DNA of 35,908 nucleotides from a virus: positions 1 through 35,908 of IMG/VR virus record IMGVR_UViG_3300021962_000306; one strand, written 5' to 3'. The notes beneath the pieces are model-generated. The model ran no database searches and was not told the DNA's origin. It saw only the letters and a list, made by a program, of their open reading frames with translations. The stretch's first letter is position 1. Every line of letters starts with the position of its first letter. Positions 2,934-32,627 of this stretch are shown in pieces. Both the position numbers and the translations under genes were made by a program.

Positions 2934-5015
2934 TTAACCCTTAAGTTCTTTTACTTGCTCCTTGAGCGCAGCAATCTCTGCTGACTGTTCTTTAACTGCC
3001 TCAATAAGAAGAGCAACCATGTTTGCGTATGCTACGGCAAGAGTTCCTTCTTCATTTTCTATAATAAGTTCTGGTGCGATTACCTGTACTTCTTGAGCAA
3101 TAACGCCCATCTCAAGTTTTTCAGAACCAATACGGTTGTAATTGTAACCTGTAATAGCCTTAATCTTTTCTACTGCTCCTGTAATAGGAACCAAGTTCTC
3201 TTTTAAACGAGAGTCTGAGTTAATTACAAGGGTACCTTGAACTGTAGTTGTTCCGCTAAATGTTTGGCTATTATTTGAGGTGAATACTCCTGTTGTAGTA
3301 TTAATGATGAACGGGCGCAGTGTATTCCAAGTAGCTGTTGATGGTGAAGTATTTGCATCTGATAACAAGAAGTAGAAGTCAGAACCATCGTTTCTAACGA
3401 TAACTGTTCTACCTGAAGTTGCAGCTGTTGAAGGGTGAAGATACATCTGGTTTCCAGGTCCAGCAACAGTTATTGTTCCCGTCATAGTTCCACCAGTTAA
3501 TGGCAGAGCATAAGAGCTGTAGTTAGAGGTAGTAAGTCCGTTAGTAACAGAAGAGGCTGTTGTAGCAGTAGCAGCGTTACCGTCAATGCTTACACCAGTA
3601 AGTGTCTGAGCACCAGAGGCACGATTGTTAGCAATAGCTGTTGTGCCAACATAAAAAGTATTACCTACAAGGTCAACCGTTCCAGTTGCCGCAGGTAAAG
3701 TTACAGTTGTAGTTCCTGCTGCTGCAGAGGCTTGAAGAGTTGTTGTTCCAGAGGTAGAACCAGGAAAGGCTACGCTAGAAATTCCTGTCAAAGCTAAGTT
3801 TGCAGAGGCACGGTTTAATGTAACCGCTGTAGTTCCTATGTAATGAGTTGAGTTACCAAGAACTGTAGAAGGAATTGTTCCAGTTAAGTTACCTGCTGTA
3901 AGTGAAGTTAGGTTTGCACCTGACACAGCGCCAAAGGAAGCAGACCATGTACCTGTTGTAATAGTTCCAACCGAAGTTAAAGACGAGGCTGTAACACCTG
4001 AGTTAAGCGTAGTTCCAGAAATATTTGCTGCGCTTACTCCGCTTGCAGTAGTTGCTGTTGCTGCGTTGCCATCAATGCTTACTCCACTAAGGGTCTGAGA
4101 AGCAGATGCACGGTTGTTAGTAATGGCTGTAGTTCCTACATAGAAGGTGTTACCAACAAGGTCAACAGTTCCTGTAGCTGCAGGAAGAGTGATTGTGTTA
4201 GTTCCAGCAACAGCTGCAGGTTGTAGCGTGATGGTTCCAGATGTAGAGCCTGGTAATGCCACGCTAGAGATACCAGTAAGAGCAAGGTTTCCTGTTGCGC
4301 GGTTTAACGCAACAGCAGTGCTACCAATATAAACGGTGGAGTTTCCTAGGATAGTAGAGGAGAGAGTTCCACCACTTAGGTTAGAAGCAGTAAGAGTTGC
4401 CCAAGAAGAAGTGGTTCCATCCGTTGTTAAAAACTTGCCGTTGTTGCCTGTCTGGGTTGGGAGGGCGTTCAAAGTTACCCAAGAAGCTGATGTTCCATCA
4501 GTTGTTAGGTACTTTCCGTTATTACCTGTCTGTGTTGGAAGGCTTACAGGAGCAGCAGCCCACTTAACTCCACTAGCTTGGGCGCTATCTGCAGTGAGCA
4601 AATATCCATCTAGACCAACAGTAAGGTTGGTAAATGCAGAGGTAGAAGTTCCTACAAATATTCCGCCCTTAGTGGTGGCGCTAAGTCCTGTACCACCGTT
4701 AGCAATAGTTAAATCGTTAGTAAGGGTTAGACCTGTTGCAGAAATAGCTCCTGTAAAGGTAGCACCAGACAAAGCGGCATAGGAAGCAGAAACTTGAGCA
4801 GCAGTAATTTTGCCATCAAGTTGAGTCTGGATATTCCCAGTTAATCCATCTAGGTATTGAATCTCTTCGTTAGAAACCGCTCCAATAGATGCGGAAGGAA
4901 ACGTAGCATTGCCCAAAACGGTAAGGCTACTGTCAAGGACAGTGTTGCCTTCTACGTTAAGCGAACTTACAAGAAGAGGCTCACCGTAGATATGGTTTAG
5001 CTTATTTAAAGCCAC
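2934..5015 (-). CDS. tail fibre/spike with C-terminal S74 intramolecular chaperone
   Basis: 693 residues, GTG start (MALNKLN) with a strong AAGGAGG 8 nt upstream. Residues 1-200 form a fibre-like shaft with a duplicated LPTQTGNNGK(Y/F)LTTDGT element. Residues 209-490 hold two long internal repeats. The C-terminus (about 595-693) is a peptidase S74 auto-chaperone: the SDSRLKEN motif supplies Ser600 and Lys605 as the expected dyad. It is followed by ITGYNYNRI, MGVIAQEVQ and a long C-terminal helix (EAVKEQSAEIAALKEQVKEL). In this family the domain trimerises the fibre and then cleaves itself off before the Ser. The mature fibre would therefore end near residue 599. Confidence 0.9.
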   Translation of the reverse strand: MALNKLNHIYGEPLLVSSLNVEGNTVLDSSLTVLGNATFPSASIGAVSNEEIQYLDGLTGNIQTQLDGKITAAQVSASYAALSGATFTGAISATGLTLTNDLTIANGGTGLSATTKGGIFVGTSTSAFTNLTVGLDGYLLTADSAQASGVKWAAAPVSLPTQTGNNGKYLTTDGTSASWVTLNALPTQTGNNGKFLTTDGTTSSWATLTASNLSGGTLSSTILGNSTVYIGSTAVALNRATGNLALTGISSVALPGSTSGTITLQPAAVAGTNTITLPAATGTVDLVGNTFYVGTTAITNNRASASQTLSGVSIDGNAATATTASGVSAANISGTTLNSGVTASSLTSVGTITTGTWSASFGAVSGANLTSLTAGNLTGTIPSTVLGNSTHYIGTTAVTLNRASANLALTGISSVAFPGSTSGTTTLQASAAAGTTTVTLPAATGTVDLVGNTFYVGTTAIANNRASGAQTLTGVSIDGNAATATTASSVTNGLTTSNYSSYALPLTGGTMTGTITVAGPGNQMYLHPSTAATSGRTVIVRNDGSDFYFLLSDANTSPSTATWNTLRPFIINTTTGVFTSNNSQTFSGTTTVQGTLVINSDSRLKENLVPITGAVEKIKAITGYNYNRIGSEKLEMGVIAQEVQVIAPELIIENEEGTLAVAYANMVALLIEAVKEQSAEIAALKEQVKELKG
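3546..4391 (-). repeat. two long tandem-type repeats inside the S74 fibre gene
   Basis: Residues 209-329 (4029..4391) and 373-490 (3546..3899) of the fibre are near-copies, offset by 164 residues. Shared blocks include STxLGNST.YIG(S/T)TAV.LNRA, LALTGISSVA(L/F)PGSTSG, TLPAATGTVDLVGN and GVSIDGNAATATTAS. The DNA copies are diverged but still recognisable, so the duplication is not very recent. Confidence 0.85.
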
Positions 5016-23391: not shown

Positions 23392-23682
23392 TTAGCAATC
23401 CCACTTGCGAAGTGAGAGTGCCTTTCTAGTTGGTCTTCCCTTTTCGTCCTTCATAGGACCAGGCATACCGCCCATTCTTGCACAAAACGATTTGCGTCGT
23501 GCTGCAGACTTAGGTGACTTTTTTGCTTGTTCTGCTGAAACAGGAGGCTTTAAGTTATGTCCCTGTGCTTTAGCAGATGCTCGGCCTTTTGCGTTAAGAC
23601 CACCTTCAGGATTTTTTCCTTCTTTGCGAGTCCATGCTGGTGTCTTATGTGCTTTCTTGTGTGCTTTCTTTTTTGTTGTCAT
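23392..23682 (-). CDS. DUF6321-like basic conserved phage protein
   Basis: 96 residues, ATG start sharing a base with the previous stop (TAATG). It begins with a Lys/His-rich segment and then carries PAWTRKEGKNPEGGLNAKGR...LKPPV...SFCARMGGMPGPMKDEKGRPTRKALSLRKWDC. This strongly conserved small protein is frequent in marine and freshwater phages, and I recall it as DUF6321. Its role is unknown; virion association is plausible from its place next to the head genes. Confidence 0.75.
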   Translation of the reverse strand: MTTKKKAHKKAHKTPAWTRKEGKNPEGGLNAKGRASAKAQGHNLKPPVSAEQAKKSPKSAARRKSFCARMGGMPGPMKDEKGRPTRKALSLRKWDC

Positions 23683-24583: not shown

Positions 24584-24943
24584 TTATTTCTCGTCTTCTG
24601 TTGGGGTATTCGTTAAACAATTTTCAATTGAGATAAGACGTTCGCCCATCTCTACAAAGGCGTCCATAATCAAGGCTTGATTTTCATAGAGACGGTCTAC
24701 ACGGTCCTTTACTGTTGTAAATCCACCGTTCTGGCTTAATTCACCATCCATACGATTCATGCGCTCCATCACTCCTGGAACAGCATCACGACCAGGAGCG
24801 GCTTCTTCACCCTCCCAATCACGCATAAAACGTTCCATCCATTGAGCCCAACGCTTTACTTTTTTACGTAAAGGGTTTAGCAAAACTCCCAAGCTAATGA
24901 GAGCACCAGCGACAACGCCGATAGTTGCAAAGGTATTAGTCAC
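24584..24943 (-). CDS. small membrane protein resembling actinophage DUF2746 proteins
   Basis: 119 residues, GTG start with AAGGAG 8 nt upstream. An N-terminal membrane segment (FATIGVVAGALISLGVLLNP) is followed by a basic helix (LRKKVKRWAQWMERFMRDWEGEEAAPGRDAVPGVMERMNRM). The R-D-W-x-G...PG(V/A)MERM pattern, then NGG...VKDRVDRLYE, resembles the DUF2746 family of actinophage membrane proteins. These often occur near lysis genes and are sometimes called holins. Resemblance is judged by eye. Confidence 0.65.
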   Translation of the reverse strand: MTNTFATIGVVAGALISLGVLLNPLRKKVKRWAQWMERFMRDWEGEEAAPGRDAVPGVMERMNRMDGELSQNGGFTTVKDRVDRLYENQALIMDAFVEMGERLISIENCLTNTPTEDEK

Positions 24944-24963: not shown

Positions 24964-25155
24964 TTACTTTGAGCCGAAGCCGTATGATGGGTCTTTTGGG
25001 TTTACAAACTTTGCTGCTGGTCCAAGCAAACCTGCAATGAAAGCATTGCATAGAGTCTTTGGGTCTGTAACACCGCTCATGTAAAGAGCAGCAACAGCTG
25101 CAAGTGATGCACGAAGCCAAGTAGCTCCTGCAGCTTTAAGTGTGTTGATATCCAT
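24964..25155 (-). CDS. small hydrophobic protein, holin-like candidate
   Basis: 63 residues, ATG start with AGGAG 4 nt upstream. Residues 10-27 (ATWLRASLAAVAALYMSG) and 36-50 (CNAFIAGLLGPAAKFV) could be membrane helices. It sits between two other small membrane proteins. A holin or pinholin-type role is suggested by size and context only. Confidence 0.65.
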   Translation of the reverse strand: MDINTLKAAGATWLRASLAAVAALYMSGVTDPKTLCNAFIAGLLGPAAKFVNPKDPSYGFGSK

Positions 25156-25196: not shown

Positions 25197-25361
25197 TTAT
25201 TCGTCACGATTACGCAGTGGATACGTAATTACCCAAGCAACAATTGTTCCCATAATTGCGTATCCAACAACTGTTTTTGCTGAACCATCAAGAACTACCC
25301 ATGCAATAAACATTCCAAGTAGTGTCCATAGTTGGTCAATCATGTCCTTAATTACCTTCAT
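25197..25361 (-). CDS. 54-residue two-helix membrane protein, holin-like
   Basis: The frame from ATG 25361 to 25197 encodes MKVIKDMIDQLWTLL... and ends PLRNRDE. Two hydrophobic helices (about residues 11-24 and 30-46) are separated by a short loop with one Asp and one Lys. Its ATG overlaps the stop of the large secreted protein gene (ATGA), so the two are likely translated together. Small two-helix proteins with a charged C-terminus are typical holin candidates, but a membrane partner for the large secreted protein is also possible. Confidence 0.7.
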   Translation of the reverse strand: MKVIKDMIDQLWTLLGMFIAWVVLDGSAKTVVGYAIMGTIVAWVITYPLRNRDE

Positions 25362-27799
25362 GGCTTGCGTCTCCTAACGCCTTTACTTTCACCTGATGGG
25401 CCTCCACCACCAGAGTTTCCTCCACCACCAGTAGAACTTCCACCAGTTGTTGTTGCAGCACTCGCAGCTGCAACTGTTGCTGCGTTCATAGCAGCACCTG
25501 CAGCAACAACTGTTGCTACAACCATCTTTTCTGCTTCTTCACGTTCTTCTGGTGACATATCTGCACCAACACTTCCAAGAGCTGCTAAAGCTGCTCCTGG
25601 GTCAGTCAGAGCTGTTGCCAATAGTTCTCCAGGGTTTTCTAGTAACTCAACTTGTGCAGCAACCTCTGCAGTAATGATAACTGCGTTACCGTTTTCGTCG
25701 GTACGCACATCAACGGGTGTTTCTGCTGGTAAGTCTTTGTATTCAAGTCCTGCTTCTTTTACAGCTTCTGCAGATAATGCTTCGCCAGGAGCAACAGACG
25801 CAATAAGCGCAGTTGCAATAACCGTTTTTTGTTCTTCAGTTAGTTTACCTTCTTCAGCAGCTTTCTTCAGCGCTTCTTCTTCAGCTTTTTTAGCTGCTTC
25901 TTCTGCAGCAAGTTTTTCTGCTTCAGCTTTTGCATTTGCTTCCTCTTGTGCTTTTGCTTCAGCTTCAGCTTTAGCATCAGCTTCTGCTTGCGCCTTTGCT
26001 TCTTCTTCGGCAGCTAACCGTTCTGCTTCTGCTTTTGCTGCAGCTTCTTCTGCAAGTCTTGCTTCCTCTGCTTTTGCTGCAGCCTCTGCTTCTGCAGCTA
26101 ATCTCTCTTCTTCAGCTTTCTTTGCTGCTTCCTCTGCTGCAATTCTGTCTGCTTCTGCTTTGGCAGCGGCTTCCTCTGCAGCTATTCTCTCAGCTTCAGC
26201 TTTAGCTGCAGCCTCTGCTTGTGCTTTAGCCTCTGCTTCTGCAGCTAATCTTGCTGCTTCTGCTTCTGCTGCAGCTTTCTCTGCTGCAATTCTGTCTGCT
26301 TCTGCTTTAGCTGCTGCTGCCTCTGCAGCTAATCTCTCTTCTTCCGCTTTCTTTGCTGCAGCTTCTGCTGCAAGTCTTGCTGCTTCTTGTTCTGCTGCAA
26401 GTTTTTCTGCTGCTTCTTTTTCAAGTCTTGCTTTTTCTGCAGCTATTGCGGCAAGTCGTGCTTGCTCTGCTGCTGCTGCAATTCTTGCTGCTTCTGCTGC
26501 AGCAGCTTGTTCAGCAGCAATTCTTGCTGCTTCTGCTGCTGCTTGTTCGGCTGCAACTCTTGCTGCTTCTGCTGCAAGTGCTGCTTGTCTTGCAGCTTCT
26601 GCAGCGGCTGCTTGCTCTGCAGCAATTCTTGCAGATTCTGCAGCGGCTGCTTGCTCTGCAGCAATTCGTGCGGCCTCTGCTGCAGCAGCAGCTGCTTGTT
26701 CGGCTGCAATACGAGCCATGTTTGGAACAAGAACTGACACAACGTTAGACTGCACAGAATAAATATGTTGAGTGTCATTGTCGGAACGAATAGAGAACTG
26801 GTATGTGGAATCTAACCCACCGCTACCAGCAAAGACTTCTTGTCCAATTGTAATCACTGTGTTAAGAGCATTTGAGTCTCCAACATTGCCTGTTGCAATT
26901 CCCCAACCAGCGGAAGTTCCATTACTAAAGAAAATTGCATAACGTTCTGGGGCAATTTCTCCTGTAGGTGCATCCCAATCAAGTGTTACAACTCCATTTG
27001 AAATTGTTGCGATTAAATTTGTAGGAGGATTTAAAACTGGAGGAACATAAGGTTGAATTGCTGCAAGAGCTGCTTGTGCGTTTGCCAGTCTTTGCTGAGC
27101 AGCTTGAAGCACTGCAAGTAAAGCAGGGTTGCGAATCATCGTTACAGTAGATTGCCCAAACCAGGAAGCTGGAACTGCTGAGTAGTTCCCCTCGCTATAG
27201 TAATAAAGAAGAGCACATGCTCCACCGCCATTTTCATAAAACCACGCATCTAGAGTGTATGCGGTTCCAGCAGTGAGCTGGATACCTGGCCCCATATTTC
27301 CGTGACAGCCTTTGTCCACCCACTCGTTGATAACTACCTGACCGTTAATGGTCATGTAGAAACCATCGTCAGCAAAAGTTCTAAACTGGTAAACCGCTGT
27401 AGTGGGCACCGTAATAGTTCCATAGAAGTGAACAGTTACGTTATCGGCATTACATCCTAAAACTCCGCCGCTGCCCCATTGAAAGTAAATTTGAGAAACG
27501 GTTGTTGTGAGACAAAGGTTCTCTTCATTGGGCGTCATGCTGATGGTGTTGTTATAAACTTTGGCAGTTAAACCTGAAGCAGATGTAGCTGTTGAAGTAT
27601 CAGGAATTAATTGAGTATCATAATTTGATTGCGCAAGATTAACAGCTGCTTGAGCAGCGTTAACTTCTTGAGTCGCTGCAGCAACTCTTGCGTTGTACTC
27701 TTGTAAAGTCTCAGCATGTGATGGTGTGACGAGTACTGCGGGTAAAAGTGCCGCAGATATAAATACAAATAGTGCTGCGAATGTTCGCAGTTTTTTCAT
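25358..27799 (-). CDS. large secreted PA14-Fn3-coiled-coil protein
   Basis: 813 residues. Signal peptide at 1-29 (basic start, hydrophobic core, cleavage after SHA). A short coil (30-64) is followed by a PA14-like domain (about 72-216, with FADDGFYMTINGQVVINEW as the key strand pair) and a second coil (224-250). An Fn3-like domain follows (258-357), then a TolA-like Ala/Glu/Lys coiled coil (361-651). A small C-terminal region (652-757) leads to an Ala/Val-rich possible membrane segment (759-782) and a Gly-rich tail ending RRRKP. PA14 and Fn3 often bind glycans. It is exported, possibly membrane-anchored and very elongated. No enzymatic motif is seen. The downstream 54-residue membrane protein is coupled to it. 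Phage proteins with a Sec signal and this build are unusual; function unknown. Confidence 0.8.
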   Translation of the reverse strand: MKKLRTFAALFVFISAALLPAVLVTPSHAETLQEYNARVAAATQEVNAAQAAVNLAQSNYDTQLIPDTSTATSASGLTAKVYNNTISMTPNEENLCLTTTVSQIYFQWGSGGVLGCNADNVTVHFYGTITVPTTAVYQFRTFADDGFYMTINGQVVINEWVDKGCHGNMGPGIQLTAGTAYTLDAWFYENGGGACALLYYYSEGNYSAVPASWFGQSTVTMIRNPALLAVLQAAQQRLANAQAALAAIQPYVPPVLNPPTNLIATISNGVVTLDWDAPTGEIAPERYAIFFSNGTSAGWGIATGNVGDSNALNTVITIGQEVFAGSGGLDSTYQFSIRSDNDTQHIYSVQSNVVSVLVPNMARIAAEQAAAAAAEAARIAAEQAAAAESARIAAEQAAAAEAARQAALAAEAARVAAEQAAAEAARIAAEQAAAAEAARIAAAAEQARLAAIAAEKARLEKEAAEKLAAEQEAARLAAEAAAKKAEEERLAAEAAAAKAEADRIAAEKAAAEAEAARLAAEAEAKAQAEAAAKAEAERIAAEEAAAKAEADRIAAEEAAKKAEEERLAAEAEAAAKAEEARLAEEAAAKAEAERLAAEEEAKAQAEADAKAEAEAKAQEEANAKAEAEKLAAEEAAKKAEEEALKKAAEEGKLTEEQKTVIATALIASVAPGEALSAEAVKEAGLEYKDLPAETPVDVRTDENGNAVIITAEVAAQVELLENPGELLATALTDPGAALAALGSVGADMSPEEREEAEKMVVATVVAAGAAMNAATVAAASAATTTGGSSTGGGGNSGGGGPSGESKGVRRRKP

Positions 27800-29005: not shown

Positions 29006-29174
29006 GTATGAATACTCTTGTATCCAATGCGATAAAGACTACGAAAAAGAGCGTAGCATCCACGATGCAGAACCTGAATACTTCTGCGACGCTTGCGGCT
29101 ACGCTCTTCAACGAGTGTTTACTTCTTTTGGCCTTCAGTTCAAAGGCTCAGGGTTTTACAAGACTGGCGGTTAG
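28998..29174 (+). CDS. FmdB-type zinc-ribbon protein
   Basis: 58 residues, ATG 28998. MPKYEYSCIQCDKDYEKERSI, then C-D-A-C-G, then RVFTSFGLQFKGSGFYKTGG, matches the FmdB-family zinc ribbon: M-P-x-Y-E-Y-x-C-x-x-C, C-x2-C-G and the end F-K-G-S-G-F-Y. FmdB proteins are putative regulators in many bacteria. It ends 4 nt into the convergent membrane-protein gene. Confidence 0.8.
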   Translation: MPKYEYSCIQCDKDYEKERSIHDAEPEYFCDACGYALQRVFTSFGLQFKGSGFYKTGG

Positions 29175-29524
29175 TTAGTGTTCTCTTCAACAACGGCTGC
29201 TGTAGTTACAAGGCCACCAAACTTAGTTGCCTTGTCTGCTGCTTGACGAGTTTCAACTTCTACGTCTGCAACTGTCTTTGCTCCTTTGTCAACGGTTGCA
29301 AATGCAGCGTTGATTTCATCAAGAGTTAACTTTCCATCATCCATAAATGCACGAGCAAGTTTTTCAACAACTGCTGCTACAGCAGTCAAACCAGCAACCA
29401 ATACTGCTTTTGCTACTGGAATACCTGCAACGGCACCAGCACCAATCACTGCAAGACCGCTAGCTGCAAAAACCGCAACAATGCGCATCAAAACATTTTT
29501 TAGCGTTGACATTAGATTCCTCAT
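29171..29524 (-). CDS. holin-like membrane protein with EF-hand-like element
   Basis: 117 residues. The start is ATG 29524 in an ATGA overlap with the previous gene, with GAGGAG 8 nt upstream; an inner ATG (29512) is also possible. Residues 10-55 are strongly hydrophobic (MRIVAVFAASGLAVIGAGAVAGIPVAKAVLVAGLTAVAAVV), enough for one or two membrane helices. A DDGKLTLDEI motif, EF-hand-like, follows at about residues 62-71. The cytosolic part ends acidic (AAVVEENTN). Small membrane proteins with such a DGK-x-T-x-D-E element are common among phage holins, and the endolysin is two genes upstream. Confidence 0.7.
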   Translation of the reverse strand: MRNLMSTLKNVLMRIVAVFAASGLAVIGAGAVAGIPVAKAVLVAGLTAVAAVVEKLARAFMDDGKLTLDEINAAFATVDKGAKTVADVEVETRQAADKATKFGGLVTTAAVVEENTN

Positions 29525-29885: not shown

Positions 29886-30434
29886 TTACTTAAACTGCTC
29901 AACAACCTGGATTGGTCCAGAGGTGTTTACATCTAGCTTAGCTGCAATTTCTATTGCCTTTTGAGGCTTTGCTCCTGCATGTAAAGCTCCAATCGCATAG
30001 TCGGAGCCAGAGCCAACTCCGTAGATACCATCTGCAGACCTACAAACCGACAAATCATCGGCAATATCAAATACTTCTCCAGAAACAGCCATAAGGAAGT
30101 TAAAACGGCCTTCACTTGATTTACCGTTTTCTTTGCCCTCGTTGAAGTCGTACCCGTTGTCTACCAAGCATTTACGAAGAGAAGGCATGGCTTTGGTAAT
30201 CATAAAATGATAAATGTCATCTGAGTCTTTTAGGCTTAACTTTGGTGGATTCCACATGTGCTGAACAACGTCGCAAGGTTGAACCTCACCACTTCCTGCA
30301 ATTAAGAAAGAACCACGTTTTGCTATCTTCTTCATATCTGGATGGTTGTAGCGACGACCACCATCACCAGTTACTTGATTATCGGCAGCGATAACGCACT
30401 TATCTTTGTATTGAACTGCGACGATAGTTGTCAT
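29886..30434 (-). CDS. HslV / proteasome-beta-like Ntn hydrolase
   Basis: 182 residues from ATG 30434; a GTG six nucleotides upstream is less likely because AAGGGG lies 5 nt before this ATG. After Met removal the protein would start TTIVAV, so the N-terminal Thr would be Thr1. Asp17 (VIAADNQVTGDG), Lys34/Lys35 (PDMKKI) and the GVGSGSDYAIGAL element correspond to HslV Asp17, Lys33 and AIGSG. Length also fits HslV (about 175). HslV and proteasome subunits cut unfolded proteins after transfer by an ATPase such as HslU or Mpa. No such ATPase lies in this window, so it may use a host partner, act alone or be a decoy. Confidence 0.75.
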   Translation of the reverse strand: MTTIVAVQYKDKCVIAADNQVTGDGGRRYNHPDMKKIAKRGSFLIAGSGEVQPCDVVQHMWNPPKLSLKDSDDIYHFMITKAMPSLRKCLVDNGYDFNEGKENGKSSEGRFNFLMAVSGEVFDIADDLSVCRSADGIYGVGSGSDYAIGALHAGAKPQKAIEIAAKLDVNTSGPIQVVEQFK

Positions 30435-30450
30435 GACCACCCCTTCATAG

Positions 30451-30501: not shown

Positions 30502-31245
30502 TTAGAGGAGTTTGACCAGTTCTGCCCAAGTCTTTGGGCCAACTACGCCATTTGAGTCAATTAGGTCATGATTGTCCTGAAAAGCTACTACAGCCTTCTT
30601 TGTGGCTGGTCCGTATACGCCGTCTGCACGCAGTCCTAGGGCCTCTTGTACTACCTTGACGCCATCACCCTTATCGCCTGGCTTAATCGTTCCTGGGAAC
30701 GCTGGAGCCTCTGCTGCGGGTACTTCAGCTTGGACCTCGTTACCCTTGTAGTTAGGGCGGCCCCAACCTACGATAGAGACTAAAACCTTCTTCTTGTTTG
30801 GCTTGTATGCACGAACCTGCTCGCACACCTCGCCGCCATTGCGCTGGTCACCTTTCTTCTTTCCAGAGGTGTTTCCTTCAATGGTTGCTACAACTCCGTC
30901 GGCAATAATGCCTGAGCAGATACCTACGTGAGAAATTCGGTTGACACCGTCTCCAGGGAAATCAAAGTAAAGGATGTCTCCTGGTTGTGGGGTTTGACCG
31001 CAATCGGCTTCAAACCATGTGCCCATCTTCTTAAATGCTGCTGCACCTGCAACTGTAGATACAGTATTAGGAATCTTTACACCCGCTTCGTGAGCTACCC
31101 ACATACAGAAGCTTCCACACCATGGTAGGAAGTTAGCGCCTGTAAACTTTCCGTACTTTGTCTCGTTATCCTTTGGACCTTCAATAATCCCAACTTCTTT
31201 GCGAGCAATCTCAATCATTGCTGCTGCTGTACCTAATGCTGCCAT
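30502..31245 (-). CDS. endolysin, CHAP amidase plus peptidoglycan-binding domain
   Basis: 247 residues, ATG start with AAAGG 8 nt upstream. The CHAP (NlpC/P60-like) catalytic domain spans about residues 1-165 with Cys43 (PWCGSFC), His106 (ISHVGI) and Glu123/Asn125 (IEGNTS) as expected catalytic residues. A linker (EVPAAEAPAFPG) leads to a PG_binding_1 domain (185-247: GDKGDGVKVVQEALGLRADGVYG and GVVGPKTWAELVKLL). It cuts peptide bonds in the host wall. No signal peptide is seen, so it needs a holin to reach the wall. Confidence 0.92.
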   Translation of the reverse strand: MAALGTAAAMIEIARKEVGIIEGPKDNETKYGKFTGANFLPWCGSFCMWVAHEAGVKIPNTVSTVAGAAAFKKMGTWFEADCGQTPQPGDILYFDFPGDGVNRISHVGICSGIIADGVVATIEGNTSGKKKGDQRNGGEVCEQVRAYKPNKKKVLVSIVGWGRPNYKGNEVQAEVPAAEAPAFPGTIKPGDKGDGVKVVQEALGLRADGVYGPATKKAVVAFQDNHDLIDSNGVVGPKTWAELVKLL

Positions 31246-31972: not shown

Positions 31973-32347
31973 ATGCCATTTAAGGATAAAGTCAAGCAAA
32001 GAGAAGCGGTACGTAGGCACTACGTTAAAAACGCAGCGGCTATCCAATTAAGGACAGCTCAGAATAATCGCCTTATTAGAAAGCGTAATAAAGCTTACGT
32101 GGACGAAGTGAAGGGCGTAAACCCTTGTGTGGACTGTGGCGTCTCGTATCCACCTTACGTCATGCAATTTGACCATGTGGTAGATGGAAAAGTCTCAAAT
32201 ATTGCGGACATGGTGCGCAATGGGTATTCCATTAAGAACATCCAGGCAGAGATAGACAAGTGCGAGCTCGTGTGCGCAAATTGCCATGCTGAGCGCACAC
32301 ACGGACTCAAAGACGAATTAGAAGAGGACTTTCCTAACGAGGCCTAA
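31973..32347 (+). CDS. HNH endonuclease on the plus strand
   Basis: 124 residues. The start is ATG 31973 (MPFKDKVKQREAVRRHY) because AAGG lies 8 nt upstream. The N-terminal 45 residues are a basic helix. Then C-V-D-C at 52-55, F-D-H at 66-68 (QFDHVVDGK), C-A-N-C-H at 101-105 and T-H at 109-110. This is the zinc-bound HNH fold of many phage endonucleases. It ends 14 nt inside the convergent WhiB gene. Its opposite orientation suggests a mobile homing-type element, but it is not inserted in another gene here. Confidence 0.85.
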   Translation: MPFKDKVKQREAVRRHYVKNAAAIQLRTAQNNRLIRKRNKAYVDEVKGVNPCVDCGVSYPPYVMQFDHVVDGKVSNIADMVRNGYSIKNIQAEIDKCELVCANCHAERTHGLKDELEEDFPNEA

Positions 32348-32627
32348 ACGCCGAGCCGTTAATTTTCTTCGCAACAGTCATTTGGCGTCTATCCATCTCG
32401 GATGTGCCACCCCAAAACCCTAGAGTGTTGTATTTGAGCGCAAAGTTAAGACAGTCTTTTTTCACGGAGCATCTGTTACACACTTGCTTTAACTCTGGAG
32501 GATAAGCCTCTCCTCGCTCAATGAAGAAGCTATCTGTATCTGTTCCTTTGCAATTGGCTTCATCAAACCAAAGTAAATCTTCCTTATCAATATTTGTTGC
32601 GTAGAGTCTGCTCTCTTCAACAGGCAT
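32334..32627 (-). CDS. WhiB-family Fe-S transcriptional regulator
   Basis: 97 residues, ATG start sharing a base with the previous stop (TAATG). Four Cys at 26, 50, 53 and 59 (EANCKG...VCNRCSVKKDC) match the [4Fe-4S] ligands, with GFWGG at 70-74 and the basic stretch DRRQMTVAKK after it. WhiB proteins bind sigma factor domain 4 and act on transcription in Actinobacteria. Phage copies (for example TM4 WhiB) can inhibit host WhiB2 and superinfection. It supports an actinobacterial host. Confidence 0.92.
   Translation of the reverse strand: MPVEESRLYATNIDKEDLLWFDEANCKGTDTDSFFIERGEAYPPELKQVCNRCSVKKDCLNFALKYNTLGFWGGTSEMDRRQMTVAKKINGSAFRPR

Follow-up and report, generated by a model that had tools for sequence, protein, structure and literature searches.

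The window considered here is a whole IMG/VR virus record, 35,908 bases long. In all likelihood it is part of an actinophage genome, since its terminase has 54% identity to the terminases of BRock, Alone3 and similar Streptomyces myoviruses, and it also carries a WhiB-like protein (32334-32627), named from sequence reading. Our subject is a pair of genes on the minus strand. The first, MAIN (25358..27799), encodes a predicted exported and membrane-anchored surface protein of 813 aa, described here from Pfam, hydropathy and AlphaFold/Foldseek, with homologues in the 80 IMG/VR loci that were kept of the 112 viral loci in the first MAIN scan. It is followed by p54 (25197..25361, minus strand), for a membrane protein of 54 aa that alignment, contig counts and a modelled hairpin indicate to be a helical-hairpin partner of MAIN. 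The stop codon of MAIN and the start codon of p54 overlap as ATGA.

Several small membrane proteins are encoded nearby on the same strand. Directly beyond p54 lie h63 (24964..25155, minus strand), a protein of 63 aa that is holin-like by size and place, and a membrane protein of 119 aa (24584..24943, minus strand) with a weak match to a holin PHROG (phrog_15431, E=4.5e-7). On the other side of the pair are HOL117 (29171..29524, minus strand), a small membrane protein of 117 aa and the commonest gene directly after p54 elsewhere, and an endolysin (30502..31245, minus strand) with CHAP and peptidoglycan-binding domains (PF05257, 5.7e-9; PF01471, 8.7e-9; endolysin PHROG, 4.8e-22). We infer from size and place that the small membrane neighbours are holins; a holin-family match was obtained for one of them only, and the PHROG of HOL117 is labelled nuclease. 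The window also has a tail fibre of S74 type (2934-5015) that is separate from MAIN. Two further genes recur in related loci, one for a DUF6321 protein (23392-23682, E=1.3e-25) and one for a member of an HslV/proteasome-like family, named from sequence only (29886-30440), which is present in 49 related loci and is repeatedly close to the pair.

Structure of the MAIN protein

At its N-terminus MAIN has a predicted Sec signal peptide (residues 1-29; 27713..27799, minus strand), MKKLRTFAALFVFISAALLPAVLVTPSHA, with a hydrophobic core and an AxA site, so that cleavage is expected at SHA/E, before the E. Signal-peptide and topology calls are based on hydropathy rules, and the core and AxA site are found across the MAIN homologues, including those with the non-canonical starts discussed below. 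Residues 74-202 (27194..27580, minus strand) form a PA14 lectin domain by Pfam (PF07691, E=8e-10) and by Foldseek, and an Fn3-like beta sandwich at residues about 260-358 (26726..27022, minus strand) was found with AlphaFold and Foldseek. The AlphaFold model of residues 30-372, made with 38 relatives, has a pLDDT of 88 and gives the order helix, PA14 sandwich, second helix, Fn3 sandwich. In Foldseek the PA14 model matches the PA14 domain of RsgI3 (2e-11) and the sugar-bound PA14 of Marinomonas (1e-8), and the Fn3 model matches the Fn3 receptor EpoR (1e-6). Pfam gives an fn3 match in 3 of 51 MAIN homologues, and the Fn3 segment is 49.5% identical in phage DSL-LC01, to which we return below.

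The DcisD site of PA14 lectins binds Ca2+ and sugar (PMC8092209). In the PA14 domain of the window the DcisD pair is D144-D145 and a YENGGG loop is present at 188, and D-D-G, W, D and YENGGGA are invariant across 38 relatives. It is very probable that the head binds glycans, and with the DcisD site intact the binding would be expected to be calcium-dependent.

Beyond the head is an Ala/Glu/Lys stalk of 296 residues (residues 360-655; 25835..26722, minus strand), comprising 145 Ala, 66 Glu and 24 Lys, which its composition and tandem repeats suggest to be a repeat-built coiled coil. In two loci (L010 and L012) the stalks differ by exactly 24 repeat residues and the proteins are otherwise identical. 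A preliminary description of the window had reported a TolA-like coil of about 290 residues. Its length and Ala/Glu/Lys composition hold, but there is no TolA match in Pfam or NCBIfam and we reject homology with TolA, as the likeness is one of composition only.

The stalk leads into a conserved module (residues about 651-757; 25529..25849, minus strand), defined by alignment and AlphaFold and predicted to be extracytoplasmic, which is modelled with pLDDT above 90 over most of its length and for which Foldseek found no fold match in the PDB. It is followed by a hydrophobic stretch (residues 759-777; 25469..25525, minus strand) that had been noted in the preliminary description and that we now assign as the anchor of MAIN. 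Over 19 residues the hydropathy of this stretch comes to 1.62-2.27 in each of the 57 distinct homologues, and median flank charges over the same homologues are -5 outside and +4 inside, so on these predictions it is a single stop-transfer helix, which leaves the head outside the cell and the basic, Gly-rich tail (25361..25468, minus strand) in the cytoplasm. The tail ends in RRRKP, and the homologues keep a basic C-terminus, in the form of RRRKP, of RRNERW or of a long K/R tail. With regard to the other features read earlier from the sequence, the Sec-type signal peptide, the PA14-like and Fn3-like domains, the Gly-rich tail and the membrane association of MAIN are all supported by the present data. 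In the window neither MAIN nor p54 has a lipobox Cys, MAIN has no match in PHROGs, tail families included, and the pair has no match among the PADLOC anti-phage defence profiles.

Across the homologues the constant parts by alignment are the C-terminal module and p54, and it is the PA14/Fn3 head that can be exchanged. In pairwise comparisons the first 400 residues of MAIN have a median identity of 23%, as against 66% in the C-terminal module and 69% in p54, and in one pair of loci (L038 and L052) the modules are 98% identical and the heads 18%. Pfam finds PA14 in 38 of 51 diverse heads, and SUEL lectin and GLEYA matches in single members among the 51. There is also a long form of MAIN, of 1,126-1,304 aa, in loci of L015 type (e.g. 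L018:818-1486), with a small recombinase gene before it and c46 and terminase genes after it.

The start codons of MAIN are unusual. Placed by Shine-Dalgarno register in 106 distinct frames, they are TTG in 47, ATA in 17, ATT in 16, ATG in 10, GTG in 2 and others in 2, with no clear site in 10 and no clear signal peptide in 2, so that TTG, ATA and ATT together account for about 80 of the 106. An independent count gave 26 MAIN frames without ATG, GTG or TTG ahead of the signal-peptide core, 1-2 of them probably misassigned, and ATT or ATA is at the aligned start, mostly behind a Shine-Dalgarno sequence, in L022, L025, L040, L052, L054, L057, L059 and others. The neighbouring genes start predominantly with ATG (endolysin 83/84, about 98%; subtilase 31/31; HOL117 67/80; p54 87/116), and it is unusual for one gene to prefer TTG, ATA and ATT beside such neighbours. 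In the window MAIN itself starts with ATG, behind GAGGGG. Translation of MAIN is thus likely to be low in most family members, and possibly sensitive to IF3, with a correspondingly low copy number.

p54, the pairing and its distribution

In the first set p54 is directly after MAIN in 76 of the 78 loci with a conserved C-terminus, MAIN reaching the contig edge in the remaining 2, and in 76/76 it overlaps or abuts the MAIN stop codon. A scan of IMG/VR contigs with p54 gave at least 600 matches, of which 599 were confirmed, and in the two scans together MAIN and p54 are both present in 158/158 testable loci, which is not chance. The preliminary description had drawn attention to the ATGA overlap with a gene for a two-helix protein, proposed that the two are coupled, and named beforehand the lack of such pairing in related genomes as the outcome that would tell against it; the overlap is confirmed and the pairing is universal among the loci where it can be assessed. 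The unit appears to be very common in viruses of lake actinobacteria.

The core of p54 is conserved as DQxWTLLGMFIAWVVLDGSAKTVVGYAI, and it forms a helical hairpin in an AlphaFold model with the MAIN anchor (pTM 0.48), a model that speaks for the hairpin itself and not for contact of p54 with the anchor helix. Neither p54 nor the C-terminal module falls into any family in Pfam, PHROGs or NCBIfam or has a fold match in the PDB, and tblastn of both against 50,697 deposited phage records gave no match at E<=1. We found no description of the MAIN-p54 unit in the published literature, and a survey of freshwater phages (PMC6802176) does not mention PA14 or holins.

Among the 50,697 records the only relative of the unit that was found is a distant, fused form in DSL-LC01, detected by means of the Fn3 segment; DSL-LC01 is a phage known from a Dishui Lake assembly and not from culture (PMC10611076). 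The large protein of DSL-LC01, like that of three IMG/VR contigs (L169-L171), has two extra C-terminal helices. When a p54 profile made without the DSL-LC01 row was aligned with this tail by hhalign the probability was 69.9, with controls at or below 1.4 for nine membrane families and at or below 2.9 for 20 column shuffles; the sequence-only HMM test without that row was weak (E=0.4). The fused form is followed by c46, c71 or h63-HOL117, just as p54 is elsewhere, and on one bacterial chromosome (G391) the DSL type is split as two ORFs. The hhalign result with its controls, the synteny and the split form make a fusion of MAIN and p54 in the DSL-LC01 type well supported. Given also the universal pairing and the overlap of the genes, p54 is probably a structural and obligate hairpin subunit of the MAIN anchor, although we hold this with moderate confidence.

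Copies are also found on bacterial chromosomes. The C-terminal module has a match in only 1 of 84,980 genomes, the acMicro-4 MAG, which has a short version of 301 aa together with p54 between sugar-metabolism genes, and the G391 and G909 chromosomes have DSL-type versions among housekeeping genes. These copies, split or fused (L085 7485-8581; L178 8578-11627; L181 2974-6624), have host genes on both sides of them, with the proviso that the contigs may be from draft genomes and contamination is possible. No phage genes were seen near the three copies, and holin and endolysin are absent beside them in the three genomes. Chromosomal homologues include some with RCC1-like heads. Integration at tRNA genes was considered and rejected, as the tRNAs near two of the copies are not on the side that integration would require, and a search for att-like repeats gave none.

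Neighbouring genes and proposed role

The reading we prefer, which is tentative and falls somewhat short of probable, is that MAIN-p54 is a surface lectin, anchored in the membrane in few copies and produced when the lysis genes are, that alters the glycan contacts of the dying cell by exclusion, masking or adhesion. In the infected actinobacterium the two genes would form a surface-display unit. MAIN would be exported by Sec, lose its signal peptide and come to rest in the cytoplasmic membrane through the late helix, with p54 as the obligate membrane-hairpin subunit of the anchor; outside the cell would be the constant helical module, the long stalk and the exchangeable head, in the window a PA14 lectin with Fn3. 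Weak start codons would hold the copy number down, the unit would be produced alongside the lysis genes, and the head would attach to surface glycans in a calcium-dependent way. The likeliest use would be in changing what the surface of the dying cell binds, either by blocking or occupying glycans of rival or progeny phages or by cell attachment. The earlier proposal of an exported phage protein, made in the host and carrying surface-binding modules on a stalk, is in accord with the signal peptide, the PA14/Fn3 domains and the stop-transfer helix. Simple masking by occupancy is harder to reconcile with the low copy number that is predicted, and this is the main reason for our limited confidence. 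Masking of receptors by a head that is common to the fibre of the phage itself was also considered, and rejected after a search found no domain shared by the tail fibre of the window and the MAIN head.

The gene neighbourhood bears on a second reading, in which p54 and the MAIN anchor are part of the lysis cassette and regulate or assist the holin encoded next to them, acting as an antiholin, a second holin or a tether that disrupts the envelope, with the head sensing or gripping wall or medium and timing resembling T4 lysis inhibition. Of 139 loci, 122 have a small holin-like membrane gene within 700 bp downstream of the pair and 99 have an endolysin (CHAP) within the locus, and in 39 of 135 loci a same-strand endolysin follows 0.24-1.05 kb downstream, typically past one small membrane gene, giving the order MAIN-p54-small membrane gene-endolysin. 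In the window the pair is likewise surrounded by endolysin, HOL117, h63 and the gene with a weak holin match, and low translation would fit a regulator. This adjacency favours late expression of the pair, and because of it we keep the lysis reading as a possibility, although a doubtful one. Against it, the neighbours are themselves putative holins, searches of Pfam, PHROGs and NCBIfam gave no holin family for p54, and in 11 loci the next gene is c46 or terminase and not a lysis gene. Swappable lectin heads would also not be expected of a lysis effector, and it is these heads, together with the chromosomal copies that stand alone without lysis genes, that lead us to prefer an effect at the surface to control of lysis. 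Other exported proteins are encoded at these loci, with an S8 subtilase (Pfam 4.4e-13) often downstream (30 loci, e.g. L056:4145-5023) and SURF14 often upstream of the pair (25 loci), and phages with the pair thus appear to encode several secreted proteins.

It is also possible, but unlikely, that MAIN is an adhesin for attachment between cells or of cells to particles, with aggregation, binding to particles or a change in protist grazing as the outcome, and has no part in interactions with phages. A long stalk that bears PA14, GLEYA or SUEL-lectin heads is adhesin-like, and the variation in stalk length by repeat units and the RCC1-like heads of chromosomal homologues also speak for this reading, but production with lysis genes would put the adhesin on a cell about to burst, and the predicted copy number is low. 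More speculative still, and improbable, is a constant two-gene platform in the membrane, throttled by near-cognate starts, in which the exchangeable lectin heads would be low-copy outward sensors that couple the recognition of outside glycans, whether on nearby cells, on debris or on free phages, to the holin encoded alongside, and so make up a modular receptor for lysis timing specific to freshwater actinophages. PA14 and Fn3 domains are found on tail proteins, and MAIN is a large phage protein encoded upstream of structural genes in the same direction of transcription, but that it belongs to the virion or tail and simply has an unusual N-terminus is very improbable given the cleavable signal peptide across homologues, the membrane anchor with its basic cytoplasmic tail, the weak start codons with the low translation that argues against a bulk virion role, the location among lysis genes outside the tail module, the separate S74-type tail fibre, and the chromosomal copies without structural genes. 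The earlier view that MAIN is not an ordinary fibre is thus upheld by signal peptide, anchor and gene place.

Comparison with known systems

MAIN resembles the PA14 adhesins (MpPA14 of Marinomonas, Flo and Epa of yeasts) in its PA14 sandwich, DcisD calcium site and stalked surface position, but is phage-encoded, has an exchangeable head, and is anchored by a C-terminal module with p54 and not by RTX, GPI or sortase. TolA shares the helical stalk rich in Ala, Glu and Lys, but has an N-terminal anchor where MAIN has a cleaved signal peptide and a C-terminal anchor, and no TolQ/TolR-like partner was seen. The spanins (i/o-spanin and u-spanin) have in common with MAIN a membrane anchor, an envelope-spanning helical stalk, a small partner gene and a lysis neighbourhood; MAIN differs in its lectin head, in its overlapping hairpin partner where spanins have a lipoprotein, and in having no lipobox, and the host group has no outer membrane. 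Two-helix phage holins are, like p54, small helical hairpins encoded near endolysin genes, but p54 has no family match and a strongly conserved core, is always behind one large exported protein, and is found also on chromosomes without an endolysin. Llp of T5 is, as predicted for MAIN, encoded by the phage and exported to the envelope of its host, and superinfection exclusion of the Llp type can possibly block both receptors and adsorption to fragments of lysed cells (PMC9586334). It is a lipoprotein of small size, made early, that blocks a protein receptor, whereas MAIN is a predicted lectin of 813 aa without a lipobox, with a membrane helix and a partner, encoded beside lysis genes.

MAIN-p54 looks like a modular platform, with a constant anchor, a constant partner of 54 aa and interchangeable, putatively sugar-binding heads, in hundreds of virus contigs; phage-encoded proteins that alter the surface of the infected cell are already known as a kind. 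Both the lake actinobacteria and the phages that infect them are abundant in freshwater. Now that Ca. Planktophila and two phages have been cultured (PMC10202952), the effects of such phages on cell surfaces become approachable. A PA14-like match to MAIN is also present in the Pelagibacter phage HTVC008M (L002, 2676-7077), where it adjoins the phage-borne curli genes CsgF, CsgG and CsgB, making this another aquatic phage that carries genes for surface structures.
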